From NCBI RefSeq assembly GCF_002575655.3, contig NC_053040.3:357552267-357616266 (forward strand): DNA of 64,000 nucleotides, given 5' to 3'. This DNA is from Aegilops tauschii subsp. strangulata. Its lineage: Eukaryota > Streptophyta > Magnoliopsida > Poales > Poaceae. Position numbers and translations under genes: made by a program. Shown here piece after piece: positions 1 through 59,330 of the stretch; position 1 is the first letter of the stretch; each line of letters starts with the position of its first letter. The notes below the pieces were generated by a model that saw only the letters and a list, made by a program, of their open reading frames with translations, was not told the origin of the DNA and searched no databases.

Positions 1-488
1 GCTCCTTGCTTGCGAGTACTTTGGATGAGTACTCACGGTTGCTTCTCTCCCTCTTTTTCCCCCTTTCCTTTCTATCTGGTTGTCGCAACCTGATGTTGGA
101 GTCCAGGAGCCAGACGCCACCGTCGACGACGACTCCCACGGCACTGGAGGTGCCTACTACTACGTGCAGGCCGCTGACGACGACCAGGAGTAGTTAGGAG
201 GTCCCAGGCAGGAGGCCTTGCCTCTTCGATCGTTGCTACTTTTGTGCTAGCCTTCTTAAGGCAAAACTTGTTTAACTTATGTCTGTACTCAGATATTGTT
301 GCTTTCGCTGACTCGTCTATGATCGAGCACTTGTATTCGAGCCCTCGAGGCCCCTGGTTTGTATTATGATGCTTGTATGACTTATTTATGTTTTAGAGTT
401 GTGTTGTGATATCTTCCCGTGAGTCCCTGATCTTGGTCGTACACATTTGCGTGCATGATTAGTGTACGGTCAAATCGGGGGCGTCACA
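1..488 (+). repeat. 3' end of the 5' LTR of element G
   Basis: This copy ends in GGGGGCGTCACA just before the primer site and is a base-for-base partner of 9588-10075. It contains the second exon-like segment of the LTR reading frame (stop at 191-193). The A to T difference at 91 changes the AG just before that exon to TG. The rest of this LTR lies outside the window. Confidence 0.95.
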
Positions 489-6299: not shown

Positions 6300-6320
6300 A
6301 TCTCGGGACGAGATTTCTTG

Positions 6321-6334
6321 TAGTGGAGGAGATT
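6321..6334 (+). other. Polypurine tract of G
   Basis: A purine-rich stretch (TAGTGGAGGAGATT) abuts the TGTAACACC start of the right LTR. This is the expected site for plus-strand priming. Confidence 0.85.
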
Positions 6335-6659
6335 TGTAACACCCTGAGAATCATGCTACAGTAACCCCCTGTGATTAAGCTAATCATGTTGCTAAACAGG
6401 GCTTGATCACATTTGAATCACCTTCCTTTCAAACTCCTAGCTCAAACTTCAAATATAATTAAAGTGAAAAATAAAAGTTTTCAAAAACTCAAACAAAAAT
6501 GTTCTGTGGGTGCTAAATAATACACTGGTAATTATGGTGGAGAAAACACATTTTTATAAAATGTCTAAATACTTTTAAATGAAATAAAACAGAAAAGGGA
6601 ATAAGCAAATAAAGAGAAAACAGAAAACAGAACCCAGGCAGAGAAAAAGAAAAAAAAAA

Positions 6660-7760
6660 GGGGGAAAAGGGCCCGCTTCCCCCCCCCCCACTGCCCCCCC
6701 GGCCCAAACTGGGCCGCAGGCGCGACCCCGGCCCAGCCCACCTCCCCCCCCCCCCCCCGCGTCCCGTTCCTGTTCCCCCGGCCGGGTCGGAACGGGGCGC
6801 GTCGCCGCCGAACCCCCTCGCCGGCGGTGAACCCCGCGAGAGGATAAGGGCGCCAGCGTCCCCCGCTCCCTCGGGCCTCTCTCCCACTCCCCCCCGCTCA
6901 CTCCCTCGGCCTCTGCGCCTCCCCCCCCCCCGGATCCACGCCGCTCTCCTCTTCCCCACGCCCGACGCGCTCGCCGCCGTTCCCGTCGTTCACGCGGCCA
7001 CCGTGCCCCACTCGCCACCTCGCCGTGTCGTACGACGTCGCCGCCCTCGACTGCACCCCCTCCGCCTCTCCGCCGAAGCTCGGAGCCACTGCATCGGCCT
7101 CCGCGAGCTCGCCTTCATCTTCGGACGCCGACGACCCCCTTCTTCCCCGGCGACGACCTGCTGCTACTAAGCCACCCACGGGCCTTTCTTGCGCCGCGCG
7201 GTGAGCTCCTCTACCTCCTCCCCCTCTCCGTTAGCTCGCTCGCGCTCCGTAGCTGCTTCCCCGCGCGCGCCCGAACGCCACGCCGCGGAGCTCGCCGCCG
7301 GCGTGTCTCCGGTGACCAAATGGTCACGGGCGTTGGCCCGCTAGCCCGACCGCACCGAGCCGCACCCGCCTAGGTAGTTAGTTCGGCCGTTCGCGCGCTC
7401 TAGCGTAGCTTCCGTCGGGCACCCGTAGCACCTCGCCGCCGGCGAGTTCATAGCGCTCGTCTCCGGCCGTTCCAGCCCCTCCGACCACCGCCGTTGGACG
7501 CGCGACGTCGAGCCGCGTCGAACGCGCCAAGCCCCGCCCCCGCAAACCCACTGTGGGCGAAACCCGAAGCACACCCGCGCATCGCCGCCGCGTTGGAGCT
7601 CGCCGGAGCCCCTCTCCGGTGCCCTGCCGACGTGGCCGGCCGGGCCCCCCCTGGGTCACTGCCAGTGGCCCCCACGGGCCCCAGTTGACTGGGTTGACCC
7701 AGTCAACTGCTGACTGGGCAGGCCCAGTCACTGACATGCGGGCCCCGCCGCAAAAATTAA
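6660..7760 (+). other. GC-rich, gene-like block inside the G LTR
   Basis: This is 1.1 kb of very GC-rich sequence with long C runs near 6680, 6745 and 6920. It has many short overlapping open frames on both strands, typical of GC-rich DNA, and none is convincing. GCGCG|GTGAGC near 7200 looks like a 5' splice site. The block resembles the 5' end of a grass gene (CpG-rich leader plus first intron) and may be the promoter/leader of an LTR transcription unit. This is inference. Confidence 0.4.
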
Positions 7761-8335
7761 AAAAGAAAATGTTTTATAAATAAAAATAATTAGTTTAATT
7801 AATCTCTCACTGACAGGTGGGCCCAGTAGTTAATTAACTAAAAACTAATTAGTTTAATCCTCTGTTAACCCACTGTCTATGACAGGTGGGTCCCCCTTGT
7901 CAGTTTGACCAGTCAACCCGGACTGTTGACCGCTGACGTCACTCATACGTCATGCTGACGTCATATCCCTTTTTCTGTTAATTAAATAATTCCAGAAATT
8001 CAAATAAACTTTGAAAATTCATATCTTTTAAACCGTAACTCGGATGAAAATGTTTTCTATATGAAAGTTGCTCAGAACGACGAGACGAATCCGGATACGC
8101 AGTCCGTGCGTCCACCACACCTCCCTAACCTATCGAACTCGCAACTTTCCCCCTCCGGTCCTTCTGTCCGAAAACGCAAAACATCGGGAATACTTTCCCG
8201 GATGTTCCCCCCCTTCACCGGTACCACCTACTGTCGCGTTAGGACACCCCTAGCACCGCTCACTGTCATGTCACGCATCGTCATGCTTGTGTTTGCATTG
8301 TATTTACTGTTTCTTCCCCCTCTTCTCTCCGGTAG

Positions 8336-9780
8336 ACTACGAGACCGACACTGTTGCTGCCCAGTTCGACTACGGAGTCGACGACCCCTCCTACTTGCCA
8401 GAGCAACCAGGCAAGCCCCCCCCCCCTTGATCACCAGATATCGCCTACTCTCCTCTATACTGCTTGCATTAGAGTAGTGTAGCATGTTACTGCTTTTCGA
8501 TATCCTATTCTGATGCATAGCCTATCCTTGCTACTACTGTTGATACCTTTACCTGCAATCCTACATGCTTAGTATAGGATGCTAGATTTCCATCAGTGGC
8601 CCTACATTCTTGTCCGTCTGCTGTGCTACACTATCGGGCCGTGATCACCTGGGCGGTGATCGCGGGTATATACTTATATACTATATACATGACACATGTG
8701 ATGACTAAAGTCGGGTCGGCTCGTAGGAGTACCCGCAAGTGGATCTTTGTGGCGGAGCGACAGGGCAGGTTGAGACCGCCTAGGTAAGAGGTGGGCCTGG
8801 CCCTGGTCGGCGTTCGCGGATACTTAACACGCTTAAAGAGATCTTGGTATTTGATCTGAGTCTGGCCATTTGGTCTATACGCACTAGCCATCTACGCGGG
8901 AGTAGTTATGGGTATCCCGGCGTCGTGGTATCAGCCGAAGCCTTCGTGACGTCAGCGACTGAGTGGCGCGCGCCGTGTTGGACCGCTTTGACGTAACCGC
9001 CGTGATCGTGTGGGTTGCTAGGTCTGCTCGCGGCCGCGTTCGCAACGTGCAGGTGTGCATAGGGCGATGGGCCCAGACCCCTGCGCGCTTAGGATTAGAC
9101 CGGCGTGCTGACCGCTCTGTTGTGCTTAGGTGGGGCTGCGACGCGTTGATCTTACGAGGCCGGGCATGACCCAGAAAAGTGTGTCCGGCCAATTGGGATC
9201 GAGCGTGTTGGGTTATGTGGTGCACCCCTGCAGGGAAGTTTATCTATTCGAATAGCCGTGTCCCTCGGTAAAAGGACGACCCGGAGTTGTACCTTGACCT
9301 TATGACAACTAGAACTGGATACTGAATAAAATACACCCTTCCAAGTGCCAGATACAACCCGGTGATCGCTCTCTAACAGGGAGACGAGGAGGGGATTGCC
9401 GGGTAGGATTATGCTATGCGATGCTACTTGGAGGACTTCACTCTATTCTCTTCTATATGCTGCAAGATGGAGATGACCAGAAGCGTAGTCTTCGACAGGA
9501 CTAGCTATCCCCCTTTTAATTCTGGCATTCTGCAGTTCAGTCCACTGATATGCCCCTTTACACATATACCCATGCATATGTAGTGTAGCTCCTTGCTTGC
9601 GAGTACTTTGGATGAGTACTCACGGTTGCTTCTCTCCCTCTTTTTCCCCCTTTCCTTTCTATCTGGTTGTCGCAACCAGATGTTGGAGTCCAGGAGCCAG
9701 ACGCCACCGTCGACGACGACTCCCACGGCACTGGAGGTGCCTACTACTACGTGCAGGCCGCTGACGACGACCAGGAGTAG
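8336..9780 (+). other. Two-exon reading frame inside the G LTR (58-codon C-terminal part)
   Basis: Exon-like segment A (8336-8410) follows a strong pyrimidine tract ending GGTAG. It encodes an acidic peptide beginning YETDTVAAQFDYGVDD and ends CCAG|GCAAGC, a GC-type donor. Segment B (9680-9780) follows the tract at about 9624-9665, ends its acceptor with AACCAG, and encodes a peptide ending GGAYYYVQAADDDQE then TAG (9778-9780). Both implied introns are phase 1: the G ending exon A and the AT starting exon B form an Asp codon, and the frame stays open to the stop. An old related LTR (51834-52275) keeps the segment B frame and stop despite length changes of whole codons. The upstream exon with the start codon was not identified. 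It may be a captured host gene tail or an LTR-encoded peptide. The evidence is frame and splice-site logic only, with no transcript data. Confidence 0.5.
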
Positions 9781-10075
9781 TTAGGAGGTCCCAGGCAGGA
9801 GGCCTTGCCTCTTCGATCGTTGCTACTTTTGTGCTAGCCTTCTTAAGGCAAAACTTGTTTAACTTATGTCTGTACTCAGATATTGTTGCTTCCGCTGACT
9901 CGTCTATGATCGAGCACTTGTATTCGAGCCCTCGAGGCCCCTGGCTTGTATTATGATGCTTGTATGACTTATTTATGTTTTAGAGTTGTGTTGTGATATC
10001 TTCCCGTGAGTCCCTGATCTTGGTCGTACACATTTGCGTGCATGATTAGTGTACGGTCAAATCGGGGGCGTCACA

Positions 10076-10384
10076 CTAGCATATGCAGATATGGCCTCGG
10101 AACACTGTGACCGAAAGGCCGAGCATGAATCATATAGTAGATGTGATCAACATAGTGATGTTCACCGTTGAAACTACTCCATCTCACGTGATGATCGGAC
10201 TTGGTTTAGTTGATTTGGATCACGTGCTCACTTAGAGGATTAGAGGGATGTCTATCTAAGTGGGATTTCTTAAGTAATATGATTAATTGAACTTTAATTT
10301 ATCATGAACTTAGTCCTGGTAGTATTAGCATATCTATGTTGTAGATCAATAGCTCGCGTTTAGCTCCCCTGTTTTATTTTTGAT
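10076..10384 (+). other. Leader region of A1
   Basis: Untranslated copia leader, closely matched by the leader of A2 (about 55375-55650). Examples are the shared phrases around GCAGATATGGCCTCGGAACAC and CTCACGTGATGATCGGAC. No ORF. Confidence 0.7.
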
Positions 10385-11247
10385 ATGTTCCTAGAGAAAA
10401 CTAAGTTGAAAGATGTTAGTAGCAATGATGCGGATTGGATCCGTGATCTGAGGATTATCCTCATTGCTGCACAGAAGAATTATGTCCTTGATGCACCTCG
10501 AGGTGACGGACCTATTGCAGGAGCAAATGCAGACGTTATGAACGTTTGACAAAGCTCGATATGATAACTACTTGATAGTTTAGTGCACCATGCTTTACGG
10601 CTTAGAACCAGGACTTCAAAAATGTTTTGAACGCCACGGAGCATATAAGATGTTCCAAGAATTGAAATTGGTATTTCATACTCATGCCCGTGTCGAGAGG
10701 TATGAGACCTCTGGCAGTACTTTGCCTACAAGATGGAGGAGAATTCCTTAGCTAGTGAGCATGTGCTCAGAATGTCTGAGTACTACAATCACTTGAATCA
10801 AGTGGGAGTTAATCTTCCAGATAAGATAGTGATTGATAGAGTTCTCTAGTCACTATCACCAAGTTACTAGAACTTTGTGATGAACTATAATATGCAAGGG
10901 ATAAACGGAAATGATTCCCAAGCTCTTCGTGATGCTGAAACCGACGAAGGTAGAAATCAAGAAAAGCATCAAGTGTTGATGGTTGACAAGACCACTAGTT
11001 TCAAGAAAAGGGCAAAGGGAAGAAGGGGAACTTCAAGAAGAATGGCAAGCAAGTTGCTACTCAAGTGAAGAAGCCCAAGTCTGTACCTAAGCCTGAGACT
11101 GAGTGCTTCTACTGCAAAGGAACTGGTCACTGGAAGCGGAACTGCCCCAAGTATTTGGCGGATAAGAAGGATGGCAATGTGAACAAAGGTATATTTGATA
11201 TACATGTTACTGATGTGTACTTTACTTGTGTTTATAGCAACCCCTAA
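10385..11247 (+). pseudogene. Decayed gag of copia A1
   Basis: The frame starts at ATG 10385 (MFLEKTKL, then a WIRDLRIILIAAQKNYVLDAP-like gag start) and is broken by several stops and frameshifts. A readable CCHC zinc knuckle survives at 11104-11145 (CFYCKGTGHWKRNC) in the frame that runs to 11247. The protein would have been the nucleocapsid precursor. It cannot be made from this copy. Confidence 0.85.
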
Positions 11248-11557
11248 GTATTTGATACTAGTTCAGTTGCTATGATTAGTAACTCGAAACGGGAGTTGCA
11301 GAATAAACAGAGACTAGTTAAGGGTGAAGTGACGATGTGTGTTGGAAGTGGTTCCAAGATTGACATGATCATCATCGCAGACTCCCTATACTTTCGGGAT
11401 TAGTGTTGAACCTAAATAAGTGTTATTTGGTGTTTGCGTTGAGCATGAATATGATTTGATCATGTTTATTGCAATACGGTTATTCATTTAAGTTAGAGAA
11501 CAATTGTTGTTCTGTTTACATGAATAAAACCTTCTATGGTCATACACACCAACGAAA
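11248..11557 (+). pseudogene. Protease region of copia A1, badly decayed
   Basis: Short protease-like pieces remain (around TTTGATACTAGTTCAGTTGC, where a copia D-T/S-G site would fall), but no frame is open. The position between zinc knuckle and integrase supports the assignment. Confidence 0.5.
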
Positions 11558-14030
11558 ATGATTTGTTGGATCTCGATCGTAGTGATACACATATTCATAA
11601 TATTGAAGCCAAAAAGATGCAGAGTTAATAATGATAGTGCAACTTATTTGTGGCACTGCCGTTTAGGTCATATTGGTGTAAAACGCATGAAGAAACTCCA
11701 TGCTGATGGGATTTTGGAATCACTTGATTATGAATCACTTGATGCTTGCGAACCATGCCTCTTGGGCAAGATGACTAAAATGCCGTTCTCCGGAACAATG
11801 AAGCAAGCAACAGATTTATTGGAACTCATACATACTGATGTATGTGGTCCGATGAGTGTTGAGGCTCGCGGCGGGTATCGTTATTTTCTGACCTTCACAG
11901 ATGATTTGAGCAGATATGGGTATATCTACTTGATGAAACATAAGTCTAAAACATTTGAAAAGTTCAAAGAATTTCAGAGTGAAGTGGAAAATCATCGTGA
12001 CAAGAAAATAAGGTTTCTACGATCTGATCGCGGAGACGAATATTTGAGTTACGAGTTTGGCCTTCAATTAAAACAATGTGGAATAGTTTCACAAATTCGT
12101 GCCACCTAGAACACCACAGCATAATGGTGTGTCCGAACATCATAACCGTACTTTATTGGATATAGTGCAATCCATGATGTCTCTTACCGATTTACCACTA
12201 TCGTTTTGGGGTGATGCATTAGAGACAGCTGCATTCACGTTAAATAGGGCACCATCTAAATCCGTTGAGACGACACCATATGAACTGTGCTTTGGCAAGA
12301 AACCAAAGTTGTCGTTTCTTATAGTTTGGGATTGCAATGCTTATAAGAAAAGGTTTCATCCTGATAAGCTCAAACCCAAATCGGGGAAAAGTGTCTTCAT
12401 AGGATACCCAAAGGTGACTGTTGGGTACACCTTCTATCACAGATCCGAAAGGCAAAACATTCGTTGCTAAGAATGGATCCTTTCTAGAGAAGGAGTTTCT
12501 CTCGAAAGAAGTGAGTGGGAGGAAAGTAGAACTTGATGAGGTAACCGTACCTGCTCCCTTATTGGAAAGTAGTTCATCACAGAAACCGATTCCTGTGACG
12601 TCTATACCAATTAGTGAGGAAGTTAATGATGATGATCATGAAACTTCAGATCAAGTTGTTACTGAACCTCGTAGGTCAACCAGAGTAAGATCCGCACCAG
12701 AGTGGTACGGTAATCCTATTCTGGAGGTCATGTTACTTGACCATGACGAACCTACGAACTATGAGGAAGCGATGATGAGCCCAGATTCCACGAAATGGTT
12801 TGAGGCCATGAAATCTGAGATGGGATCCATGTGTGAGAACAAATTATGGACTTTGATTGACTTGCCCAAATGATCGGCGAGCCATTAAGATTAAATGGAT
12901 CTTCAAGAGGAAGATGGACGCTGATAGTAGTGTTACTATCTACAAAGCTAGAATTGTCGCAAAAGGTTTTCGACAAGTTCAAGGTGTTGACTACGATGAG
13001 AGTTTCTCACTCGTATCTATGCTTAAGTCTGTCCGAATCATGTTAGCAATTGCCGCAGTTTATGAAATCTGGCAAATGGATAAGCAAAACTGCATTCCTT
13101 AACTGATTTATTAAAGAAGAGTTGTATATGACGCAACCAGAATGTTTTGTCGAACCTAAAGGTGTTAACAAAATATGCAAGCTCCAACGATCCATCTATG
13201 GACTGGTGCAAGCATCTCGGAGTTGGAATATACGCTTTGATAAGTTGATCAAAGCATATACTTTTATACAGACTTGCGGTGAAGCCTGTATTTACAAGAA
13301 AGTGAGTGGGAGCACTACAACATTTCTGATAAGTAAATGTGAATGACATATTGTTGATCGGAAATAATGTAAAATTATTCTGCAAAGCATAAAGGAGTGT
13401 TTGAAAGGAGTTTTTCAAAGAAATACCTCGGTGAAGCTTCTTACATATTGAGCATCAAGATCTATAGAGATAGATCAAGACGCTTCATAAGTTTTTTGAA
13501 TGAGTACATACCTTGACAAGATTTTGAAGTAGTTCAAAATTGAGCAGTCAAAGAAAGAGTTCTTGCCTGTGTTACAAGGTGTGAAATTGAGTAAGACTCA
13601 AAAGCCCGACCACGGCAGAAGATAGAAAGAGAATGAAAGTCATTCCCTATGCCTCAGCCATAGTTTCTATAAAGTATGCCATGATGTGTACCATATCTAT
13701 TGTATACCCTACACTGATTTTTGGCAAGGGAGTACAATAGTGATCTAGGAGTAGATCACTGAACAGCGGTCAAAATTATCCTTAGTGGAATAAGGATATG
13801 TTTCTCGATTATGGAGGTGACAAAAGGTTCGTCGTAAAGGGTTACGTCGATACAAGTTTTGGCACTGACCCGGATGACTCTAAGTCTTAATCTGGATACA
13901 TATTGAAAGTGGGATCAATTAGCTAAAGTAGCTTCGTGCAGAGCATTGTAGACATAGAAATTTGCAAAATACATACGGATCTGAAAATGGCAGACCCGTT
14001 GACTAAACTTCTCTCACAAGCAAAACATGA
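11558..14030 (+). pseudogene. Decayed integrase-RT-RNase H of copia A1
   Basis: In order: a GAG-pre-integrase segment (LWHCRLGHIGVKRMKKLH, near 11650); an integrase core with HTDVCGPM and a SDRGDEY motif (to about 12109); a frameshift into NGVSEHHNRTLLD (12099-12470) with the catalytic Glu; a linker rich in Ser/Glu (12421-12873); and RT pieces (WIFKRKMDADSSVTIYKARIV, 12857-13102; QRSIYGLVQASRSWN, 13122-13346). A ruined C-terminal part runs to about 14030, where DLKMADPLTK, the usual end of copia RNase H, is still readable. At least four frame changes and several stops are present. No YVDD box remains in frame. Confidence 0.88.
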
Positions 14031-51833: not shown

Positions 51834-52275
51834 CTCACGGTTGCTTTGCAACTTCTTTTCCCCTATACCCGATTACTACGATCAGATGACGGATCCCAAG
51901 AGCTAGATGCCACCACTGATGACTACTACTACCCGAGGATGCCTACTACTACGTGGAGGCCGCCGACGACCAGGAGTAGTTTAGGAGGCTCCTAGGAAGG
52001 AGGCCTTGTTTTTCGATCCATGTTGATGTTTGTGCTAGCCTTCTTAAGGTAGACTTGTGTACTTATGTCTGTACTCAGATATTGTGCTTCCGCTGACTCT
52101 TGTGTACTTGAGCTTATGTATTCAAACCCTCGAGGCCCCTGGCTTGTAATATATAAAGGTTGTATTGTTTTATTTGTGTCTAGAATTGTGCTGTGATATC
52201 TTCCCGTGAGTCTTTGACCTTGATTATGCGCATTTGCGTGTATGATTACTGCACGATTAAGTCAGGGGCGTCACA
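51834..52275 (+). repeat. Old LTR 3' end of the G type, truncated by D
   Basis: Aligns along its whole length to 9617-10075 of the G LTR with many substitutions and indels, ending CAGGGGCGTCACA. It is therefore a much older relative or sister family. The exon-B-like frame (DAYYYVEAADDQE then TAG, ending at about 51980) is still open. The left part was lost together with the 3' side of D. Confidence 0.88.
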
Positions 52276-55654: not shown

Positions 55655-58600
55655 TGTTCCTAGAGAAAATTTAGTTGAAAGTTGATAGTAGCAATTATGC
55701 GGACTGGGTCCGTAAACTGAGGATTGTCCTCATTGCTGCACAGAAGGCTTATGTCCTTAATGCACCGCTCGGTGTGCTGAACCTCATCGTCGTCTGATGT
55801 TACGAAACATCTGGCATACACGTTTTGATGACTACGTGATAGGTCAATGTGTAATGCTAACGGTTTAGAATTGTGGCACAAGAGACGTTTTTGAAACGTC
55901 GCAGAACATATGAGATGTTCCGAAGACTGAAATTGGGATTTCAGACTAGTGCCCACGTCAAGAGGTATGAGACCTCTGACAAGTTTCTTAAGCCTGCAAA
56001 CTAAGGGAGAAAAGCTCAATCGTTGAGCATGTGCTCAGATTGTCTGAGTGCCACAATCGCTTGAATCGAGTGGGAGTTAATCTCCCAGATGAGATAGTGA
56101 TAGTTCTCCATAGTCACTGCCACCAAGCTAGTAGAGCTTCGTGATGAACTATATCATATCAGGGATAGTTATGATGATCCTTGAGCTATTCGCGATGTTT
56201 GACACCGCGAAAGTAGAAATCAAGAAGGAGCATCAATTGTTGATGGTTAGTAAAACCACTAGTTTCTAGAGGGGCAAGGGCAAAAGGGATACTTCATGAA
56301 ACAGCAAATCGTTTGCCGCTCTAGTGAAGAATCCCAAGGTTGAACCCAAACCCGAGACTAAGTGCTTCTGCAATGAGGGGAATGGTCACTGAACCAGTAC
56401 TACCCTAGATACTTGGTAGATGAGAAGGCAGGCAAGGTCGACAGAAGTATATTGGATATACATTATATGAATGTGTACTTTACTAGTACTCCTAGCAGCA
56501 CCAGGGTATTAGATACCGGTTCGGTTACTAAGTGTTAGTAACTCGAAATAAAAGCTGCGGAATAAACGGAGACTAGCTAAAGGTGAGATGACGATATGTG
56601 TTGGAAGTGTTTCCAAGGTTGATGTGATCAAGCATCGCATGCTCCCTCTACCATCGAGATTTGGTGTTTGCGTTGAGCATGATTGGATTATGTTTATCGC
56701 AATACGGTTATTCATTTAAGGAGAATAATGGTTACTCTGTTTATTTGAATAATACCTTCAATGGTCTTGCACCTAAAATGAATCTCGATCGTAGTGATAC
56801 ACATGTTCATGCCAAAAGATATAAGATAGTAATGATAGTACCACATACTTGTGGCACTGCAATTGAGTCATATTGGTATAGAACGCATGAAGAAGCTCCA
56901 TGTAGATGGATCTTTGGACTCAGTCGTTTTTGAAAACATTGAGACATGCGAACCATGTCTGTTGGTATATATGCATGAAGAAACTCCATGCAGATGGATC
57001 ATTTGGACTCACTTGATTTTGAATCACTTGAGACATGCAAATCATACCACATGGGCAAGATGACTGAAGGGCCTCGTTTTCAGTAAGATGGAACAAGAGA
57101 GCAACTTATTGGAAGTAATACATTTTGATGTATGCAGTCCAATGAGTGCTGAGGCATGCAGTGGATATCGTTATGTTCTTACTTCACAGATGATTTGAGT
57201 AGATGCTGAGTGTATTTACTTGATGAAACACGAGTCTGAATTATTGAAAGGTTCAAGTAATTTCAGAGTGAAATTGAAGATCGTCGTGACAAGAGGATAA
57301 AATGTCTGTGATATGATCATAGAGATGAGTATCTGAGTTACGAGTTTGGCACACAATTAAGACATTGTGGAAAGTGTTTCACAATTAATACCGCCTGGAA
57401 CACCATAGTGTGATGGTGTGTCCGAACATCATAACTGCACCCTATTGGATATGGTGCATGCCATGATGTCTCTTATCGAATTGCCACTATCGTTTATGGG
57501 TTAGGCATTAGGGACAACCGCATTCACTTTAAAAGGGGCACCACGCAATTCCGTTGAAACGACACCGTTTAGAGAAACCTAAGTTGTCGTTTTCTTAAAA
57601 GTTTGGGGCTGCGATGCTTATGTGAAAAAGTTTCAAGCTGATAAGCTCGAACCCAAAGCGGATAAATACATCTTCATAGAAAACCCAAAACAGTTGGGTA
57701 TACCTCCTATTTCAGATCTGGAAGCAAAAGTAATTGCTTCTAGAAACAGGTCCTTTCTCGAGGAAAAGTTTCTCTCGAAAGAATTGAGTGGGAGGATGGT
57801 GGAGACTTGATAAGGTTATTGAACCGTCACTTCAACTAGTGTGTAGCAGGGCACAGGAAGTTGTTCCTGTGGCACCTACACCAATTGAAGTGGAAGCTTA
57901 TGATAGTGATCATGAAACTTCGGATCAAGCCACTACCAAACCTCATAGGACGACAAGGATGCGTGCTACTTCAGAGTGGTACGTGATCCTGTCTGAGATA
58001 TCATGTTGTTGGACAATACTGAACCTACGAGCTATGGAGAAGCGATGGTGGGCCCATATTCCGACAAATGGTTAGAAGCCATAAAATCCGAGAGGATCCA
58101 TGTATGAAAACAAAGTATAGACTTTGAGAGTACTACTTGATGGTCGTAAGGCTATTGAGGTAAATGGATCTTTAAGAAGAAGACGGACATGGACGGTAAT
58201 GTTACCGTCTATGAAGCTCGACTTGTGGCAAAGAGTATTTCCACAAGTTCAAGGAGTTGACTACGATGAGATTTGCTCATCCGTAGCGATGCTTAGGTCC
58301 GTCGGAATCATGTTGGCATTAGCTGCATTTATGAAATCTGGCAGATGGATGTCAAAACAAGTTTCCTTGCCAGTTTTCGTAAGGAAAGGTTGTATGTGAT
58401 ACAATCAGAAAGGTTTTGTCGATCCTAAGGATGCTAAAAGGTATGCTAGCTCCAGCGATCCTTCTAAGGACTGGAATAAGCATCTCGGAGTTGGAATGTA
58501 CGCTTTGATGAGATGATCAAAGATTTTGGATTTATACAAAGTTTATTAGAAACTTGTATTTACAATAAAGTGAGTGGGAGCGCTACAACATTTCTGATAA

Positions 58601-59330
58601 GTATATGTGAATGACATATTGTTGATCCGAAATGATGTAAAATTTCTGGAAAGCATAAAGGGTTGTTTGAAAGGAGTTTTTCAAAGGAAGACCTGGATAA
58701 AGCTGCTTACACATTGGGCATCAAGATCTATAGAGATAGATCAAGACGCCCGATGATACTTTCAAAGAACGCACACCTTGACATGATTTTGAAAGAGTTC
58801 AAATAGATCAGCAAAGAAGGAGTTCTTGGCTGTGTTACAAGGTGTGAGTATTGAGTAAGACTCAAGACCTGACCACAGCAGAAGAAAGAGAAAGGACGAA
58901 GGTCGTCCCCTATGCTTCAGATGTAGGCTCTACAGTATGCTATGCTGTGTACCGCACATGAAGTGTGCCTTGCCATGAGTTGGTCAAGGGGTACAATAGT
59001 GATCCGGGAATGGATCACATGACAGCGGTCGAACTTATCCTTAGTATCTAGTAGACTAAGGAATTTTCTCGATTATGGAGGTGAAAAGGAGTTCGTCGTA
59101 AAGGGTTACGTCGATGCGAACTTTGACACTAATCCGGATGGCTCTGAGTAGTAAACCGGATTCGTATAGTAGAACAATTATTTGAAATGGCTCCAAGTAG
59201 CGCGTGGTAGCATCCACAAGATGACATAGATATTTGTAAAGCACACACGGATCTGAAAGGTTCAGACCCGTTGACTAAATAACCTCTCTCACAAGCATAA
59301 CATGATCAAACCAAAACTCATTGAGTTTAA
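55655..59330 (+). pseudogene. Decayed gag-pol of copia A2
   Basis: It starts at ATG 55653-55655 (MFLEKI in the A1 homologue). The order is gag, a ruined zinc knuckle near 56361 (Cys lost and a stop present), the pre-integrase part (duplicated with an 88-bp period at 56885 and 56973), integrase pieces (57117-57480), linker and RT pieces (VQGVDYDEI near 58250), and a C-terminal end near 59260 (DLKGSDPLTK). Frameshifts and stops occur roughly every 50-150 bases. Nothing longer than about 95 codons is open. It cannot encode any enzyme. Confidence 0.88.

Follow-up and report, generated by a model that had tools for sequence, protein, structure and literature searches.

MMTV sag and lentiviral nef are retroviral coding sequences that lie in, or overlap, the LTR and are expressed from spliced subgenomic RNA, the unspliced RNA serving as the genome. 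In plant LTR retrotransposons, additional open reading frames (aORFs) are assigned to the internal region, for the most part to the stretch from pol to the 3′ LTR; examples include gene23 of Grande, RIRE2, ORF4 of Retand, and the env-like frame of Bagy-2 (PMC7264820). The CERV protein of Cer1 is described as an accessory protein required for export of the unspliced genomic RNA (PMC10309623), and triticale retrotransposons, mostly Ty1/copia, have been found to produce short spliced GAG RNAs from their internal region (PMC7765848).

Here, we describe a window, i.e., the whole stretch of 64,000 nt from Aegilops tauschii subsp. strangulata (contig NC_053040.3, positions 357,552,267 to 357,616,266) that was analysed, in which the LTR of one retrotransposon had been predicted to contain a small gene under coding constraint. 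This prediction is supported by the phase of gaps, by dN/dS, by conserved splice sites, and by fused proteins on contigs too short for the intron, and we consider it likely that the LTR carries an accessory gene expressed from a spliced subgenomic mRNA. In layout, MMTV sag and lentiviral nef are the nearest described cases, as they combine coding sequence in the LTR with a spliced subgenomic RNA, which the goatgrass gene would also use; unlike in these two, the goatgrass LTR holds entire exons and introns, such that even a solo LTR might be a gene complete in itself. The gene resembles the aORFs in being additional to gag-pol, occurring in many copies, and having no assigned function, and the RNA of Bagy-2 is also spliced; it differs from the aORFs as defined there in being located inside the LTR, in being present in every LTR, and in having two introns (PMC7264820). 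While aORFs occupy the internal region, exon 1, exon A, and exon B (6831–9780) fall within the LTR (6335–10075). CERV may serve as a model for the role of an accessory protein in an element with working splice sites, although, unlike the gene containing A and B, it apparently is not LTR-borne (PMC10309623). The triticale GAG RNAs resemble the case proposed here in that LTR retrotransposons of a cereal give rise to spliced subgenomic RNA; the A+B product differs from them in originating within the LTR and from a Ty3/gypsy element (PMC7765848). In the literature searched, which covered few subscription papers, no report was recognised of a coding gene with introns that lies within the LTR of a plant element.

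Host Element and Gene Structure

The Pfam matches of the window element are arranged in the order gag, protease, RT, RNase H, integrase, and chromodomain, which is the order of a plant Ty3/gypsy chromovirus, with the Chromo match (E = 1.2e-4, 22.3 bits) falling under the Pfam cut-off of 25.1; the element is probably Tekay-like. Between its two LTRs, 12 differences were counted over 3271 sites, suggesting an age of about 0.14 Myr when a substitution rate of 1.3e-8 per site per year is used; alignment of the end of the 5′ LTR (1–488) with 9588–10075 showed three differences. The exon B acceptor of the 5′ LTR has been lost since insertion by a change from AG to TG at 91. An Rfam scan of 6300–10100 yielded no match. 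A 260-aa open frame with a TTG start (794–1576), located between the 5′ LTR and gag and without a Pfam match, possibly represents another accessory gene. Adjoining the element is a decayed stretch (10500–12000) that by eye appears copia gag-pol-like, and parts at 11955 and 13174 are repeated at 57244 and 58442 with 79–85% identity (window 57244–58644).

Table 1. Features of the LTR-borne gene and related features in the window.
Feature	Position	Strand	Remarks
3′ LTR carrying the gene	6335..10075	+	3,741 bp; TG...CA ends; LTR spacing 9587
Exon 1 (approximate)	6831..7200	+	GC-rich, no ATG
Intron 1	7201..8335	+	1,135 nt, GTGAGC...TAG
Exon A	8336..8410	+	75 nt, symmetric (phase 1-1), encodes DYETDTVAAQFDYGVDDPSYLPEQP
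Intron 2	8411..9679	+	1,269 nt, GC-AG
Exon B	9680..9780	+	101 nt, TAG stop, encodes (D)VGVQEPDATVDDDSHGTGGAYYYVQAADDDQE
LTR remainder	9781..10075	+	read as putative 3′ UTR/polyadenylation region
Exon B in 5′ LTR	93..193	+	other LTR of the element; acceptor reads TG instead of AG (base 91)
Exon B relic, frameshifted	51886..51979	+	in old LTR fragment 51834–52275

The splice signals claimed in the original prediction are present in the window sequence, with exon A preceded by a pyrimidine tract and TAG, exon B preceded by CAACCAG, and A ending with a GC-type donor (CAG/GCAAGC). The phases of the two exons match, the single G left by A and the AT of B giving GAT (Asp), and the joined frame is open as far as the TAG at 9778–9780. 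An upstream exon ending in G, which the predicted structure called for, could also be identified (CGCGCG/GTGAGC at 7200/7201); this exon 1 leaves one G, which together with AC specifies Asp at the junction with A, and its phase-1 frame is open from behind a stop at 6828 up to the donor. Joining of exon 1 to A was seen in database proteins from other copies, not from the window copy; these include proteins with exon 1, A, and B united on contigs that could not accommodate the introns. The motif GCAACCAG occurs at both ends of intron 2 (8403–8410 and 9672–9679), such that exon A and intron 2 end alike. A block of ~70 nt in intron 1 (8030–8110, GTAACTCGGATGAAAATGTTTTCTATATGAAAGTTGCTCAGAA) is, by eye, strikingly similar in the LTR copies L069, L070, and L071, and is more alike among them than most of the surrounding LTR.

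The A+B portion encoded by the window contains 17 acidic residues and one basic or His residue among 58. AlphaFold predictions for 21 proteins showed no confident fold (mean pLDDT of 60.3; pTM of 0.17), and the A+B proteins are taken to be mostly disordered; that the acidic tail binds a partner would be a guess.

Genomic Copies and Coding Constraint

Searches of the 4.1-Gb genome located a pattern at the end of B in 12,507 places (≤3 mismatches) and a pattern over the A acceptor in 8,377 places (≤2 mismatches), counts that represent matches rather than intact genes or elements; the reversed-pattern control gave 0 for each pattern search. For the donor of A (intron 2), exact matches to the GC form were found in 12,509 places and to the GT form in 50. 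Splice sites are retained across diverged LTR copies. As expected for an aORF, i.e., an extra ORF found in most copies with coding conservation, A and B occur in thousands of places, with intactness estimated from samples.

For exon B, 68 loci and the window were aligned (69 rows; 66 distinct LTRs, the duplicated places being window/L001, L029/L060, and L011/L055). Thirty of these loci had been selected because 30 nt of B matched exactly and are biased towards conservation; another 29 (L010–L038) were selected for similarity to the end of the LTR, flanks included, and are free of that bias. The length of B modulo 3 was kept in 66/69 rows, and B was fully intact in 52/69 (17 broken); the corresponding numbers were 29/29 and 20/29 for L010–L038, 28/30 and 23/30 for the pattern-picked loci, and 8/8 and 8/8 for eight window-like loci. 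Across the 69 rows, gap events with a length that is a multiple of three accounted for 8/10 events in B, compared to 3/20 upstream and 1/22 downstream (Fisher, 2.5e-5). Among L010–L038, they accounted for 6/7 events in B, 1/14 upstream, and 1/17 downstream (Fisher, 7e-5), and the check on indel phase proposed with the original prediction thus came out at 6/7 multiples of three in B versus 2/31 in the flanks. Pooled dN/dS values with codon bootstrap, which serve as a guide and not as a test since pairs are non-independent and A copies were chosen intact, were 0.38 (0.19–0.69) for B in L010–L038, with 0.86 (0.52–1.40) and 2.35 in the other frames, and 0.52 (0.26–0.93) in 58 loci (search pattern masked; L009, L050, and L051 dropped), with 0.92 and 1.75 in the other frames.

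Exon A was read in 39 copies (3 duplicates removed; L080, in which the A donor is lost, omitted), most of which were located via a motif that includes the acceptor and the GCAA donor. The frame was kept in 33/39 copies (lengths of 69, 72, 75, and 78), and 31/39 were free of stops (8 broken); multiples of three made up 5/11 gap events in A, 1/8 upstream, and 0/10 downstream (1/18 in the flanks; Fisher, 0.018). In the 31 intact copies, dN/dS was 0.52 (0.31–0.89), with 0.94 and 0.97 in the other frames. Thus, in the second of the proposed checks, the predicted frame was the only one with a dN/dS clearly under 1 for both B (0.38) and A (0.52); values for the flanks of B were also below 1 in places (0.60–0.98). 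A stop or odd changes were observed in the window-like A copies L084 and L082. One part of the original prediction did not hold: the old LTR (51834–52275) had been claimed to retain the B frame with a length difference of whole codons, and its exon B is 94 nt, i.e., 7 nt shorter. The AYYYV..AADD..QE letters and the TAG that had also been claimed for this copy are present, but the frame is shifted before AYYYV and differs from that at the start of B.

Fused Proteins as Probable Products of Splicing

A database search with the A+B protein gave 291 matches at E ≤ 1 (the best 120 of 291 listed), and a profile built from 21 proteins gave 970 matches at E ≤ 1e-3 (the best 120 of 970 listed). A loose pattern for fused A and B, which admitted at least one protein lacking B (P0173) and overlooked at least one that has it (P0010), fits 49/175 database proteins. 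Annotated proteins with fused A and B were found in Triticum and Aegilops, including P0014, P0122, and P0145 from T. urartu. Seventeen fused proteins, P0002–P0005, P0008, P0010, P0015, P0016, and P0018–P0020 from the first search and P0129, P0130, P0133, P0140, P0149, and P0150 from the profile search, are located on ENA contigs of 503–755 bp (longest contig for each). These contigs cannot represent the unspliced locus because intron 2 alone is longer (1,269 nt in the window, 1,332 nt in L071/L062, and 1,554 nt in L110). No intron-less junction of A and B, searched with two types of A end and ≤3 mismatches, was found in the 4.1-Gb genome, and intron-less retrocopies, considered as a proof of splicing, were rejected on this result. 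An earlier junction pattern was uninformative, as GCAACCAG closes both exon A and intron 2. Because the contigs are too short for the intron and no intron-less junction of the two types searched was found in the genome, the 17 fused proteins most likely represent cDNA. A separate class of proteins of ~55 aa (MSTHGCF...) reads from intron 2 straight into B and is unspliced.

Exon 1, Start Codons, and Host Fusions

No ATG is present throughout 6600–7319 in the window, and exon 1 contains no AUG in 8/8 window-like copies. The window copy may make no protein by itself, use a non-AUG start, or have a start supplied elsewhere; inability to make a protein alone is a possibility because the window-like exon 1 is without an AUG. 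Among 24 LTRs not selected for exon 1 (L001–L008, L069–L071, and L096–L108), an in-frame ATG ahead of the phase-1 donor is clear in L071 and L105 and doubtful in L103; L070 lacks the exon 1 donor (ATGAGC instead), and none could be located in L108. Up to the predicted junction, T. urartu P0014 and exon 1 of L071 agree at 72%, and L071/L062 is open from ATG to stop over three exons, with GC donors at both introns. A second type of exon 1, represented by Ae. geniculata P0013, shows 81–84% agreement among proteins of Ae. geniculata, T. durum, T. urartu, and Ae. tauschii, and was located in 14 places in the genome, 11 of which have no stop in the match. In 13 second-type copies that were fetched, GT[AG]AGC is found at the same place in 13/13, an ATG in 8/13, and an open frame from ATG to donor in 6/13. 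The dN/dS of this exon 1 was 1.06 (0.57–2.12) in eight copies, 0.57 (0.24–1.56) in four, and 0.98 (0.68–1.50) for both together; no sign of purifying selection was seen in this type of exon 1. Among the genomic LTR copies, L110 is complete from ATG to TAG over three exons with GT-AG and GC-AG introns, encoding a protein of 108 aa that over its full length is 83% identical to Ae. geniculata P0172 and 76% identical to T. urartu P0145. The Ae. geniculata gene ACQJBY_009061 has models with exon A (P0172) and without it (P0170); skipping of exon A keeps the frame because A is symmetric.

Some proteins combine A and B with sequences from outside the LTR. In Ae. tauschii P0001, the first part corresponds to an exon from an array of presumably lipid-transfer-like genes on contig C2, and an LTR located 9.1 kb downstream on the same strand has an exon A identical to the P0001 sequence; this placement is one of two equally good ones, with B beyond the fetched stretch (L122, C2:613473050–613483000). 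P0141, with a kinase domain, and P0136, with an LRR N-terminal domain (Ae. tauschii/T. aestivum), also end in A+B and look like host fusions similar to P0001. Within gag-pol, phase-1 donors at 1885 and 5287 outscore the exon 1 donor, as scored in the window copy with a rough weight matrix, and are candidates for splicing from the internal region into A. No fusion to gag or pol was present among the proteins read, which range up to about 203 aa.

Proposed Mechanism and Alternative Explanations

The gene looks like an element gene rather than a captured host gene because it is found in LTR copies by the thousand and has no match in Pfam. In the mechanism we propose, each LTR would constitute a small gene consisting of exon 1 (5′ UTR and variable N-terminus), A, B, a stop, and a tail, and the LTR promoter would give rise to two kinds of RNA, an unspliced genome for copying and a spliced subgenomic mRNA; the genomic RNA is presumably unspliced because intron-less LTRs should otherwise appear. 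Translation of the spliced mRNA would yield a protein of ~110–130 aa with a fast-changing N-terminus and a constant, acidic, and probably unfolded C-terminus (A+B). At intron 2, the near-universal GC donor would be weak and let a sufficient share of the RNA escape splicing, although a founder effect could instead have fixed this donor. Upstream host transcripts may splice into A and thereby gain A+B as last exons. Our best guess for the protein is an accessory factor that would act in trans, either in export or translation of intron-containing RNA or in silencing defence. The full proposal, that the LTRs are complete genes with a deliberately weak GC-AG intron and a trans-acting accessory protein, present in thousands of places including solo LTRs, and also act as a last-exon cassette adding an acidic tail to host proteins, is tentative, and we place it somewhat short of an even chance.

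The absence of an AUG from exon 1 of the window-like copies, together with T. urartu UniRef models of fused A and B that have no initial Met (P0006, P0007, P0009, P0011, P0124, P0128, and P0137), would be consistent with a transcript that is spliced yet at present mostly untranslated, i.e., a leader or non-coding LTR transcript with an inherited coding appearance, the gene being alive in few subfamilies. This explanation is possible but on balance doubtful, as it is at odds with the frame-keeping length differences between subfamilies and the frame-specific dN/dS in A and B, as well as with the annotated proteins and the two genomic copies with an ATG. Alternatively, A and B may represent last exons for transcripts that start elsewhere, in host genes or in the internal region of the element, with exon 1 having a minor role. 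The joining of a host exon to LTR exon A in P0001, the similar structures of P0141 and P0136, and the phase-1 donors at 1885 and 5287 point in this direction; however, several database proteins have N-termini that match LTR exon 1 or are similar to it (P0014 with L071; the P0013/P0174 type with L109–L121) and gag or pol fusions are missing from the proteins read (up to about 203 aa), and we consider this explanation unlikely.

The exon–intron layout, the GC-rich first exon, and the ordinary splice grammar are host-like, as would be expected if the 3′ part of a cellular gene had been captured in an ancestral LTR and were now decaying. Such a capture seems quite improbable, given that P0014, P0001, and P0010 have no Pfam match and that, except for the fusions, no named host family with A+B was found among the matches listed (the best 120 of 291 and 120 of 970). 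That a long GC-rich repeat should by chance contain a pair of short open segments flanked by splice-like borders deserves hardly any credence: the window-like copies, being ~99% identical and belonging to an element ~0.14 Myr old, say little alone, but gap phase, frame-specific dN/dS, and the fused products refute chance for A and B, leaving it possible for parts of exon 1.

Implications

LTRs are usually viewed as gene-free regulatory DNA (promoter and terminator), whereas, in the case of the LTR-borne accessory gene that we favour, an LTR can itself be a gene. This raises the question of how an element copied from unspliced RNA retains two working introns at its end, and whether the GC donor is the answer. 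For genome annotation, gene models ending in A+B should be treated with caution, as these would be retrotransposon products. One abundant group of elements in Triticum and Aegilops would be spreading thousands of spliced coding units, some of which have already been annotated as cereal genes (T. urartu P0014, P0122, and P0145) or as a fusion with a host exon (P0001).
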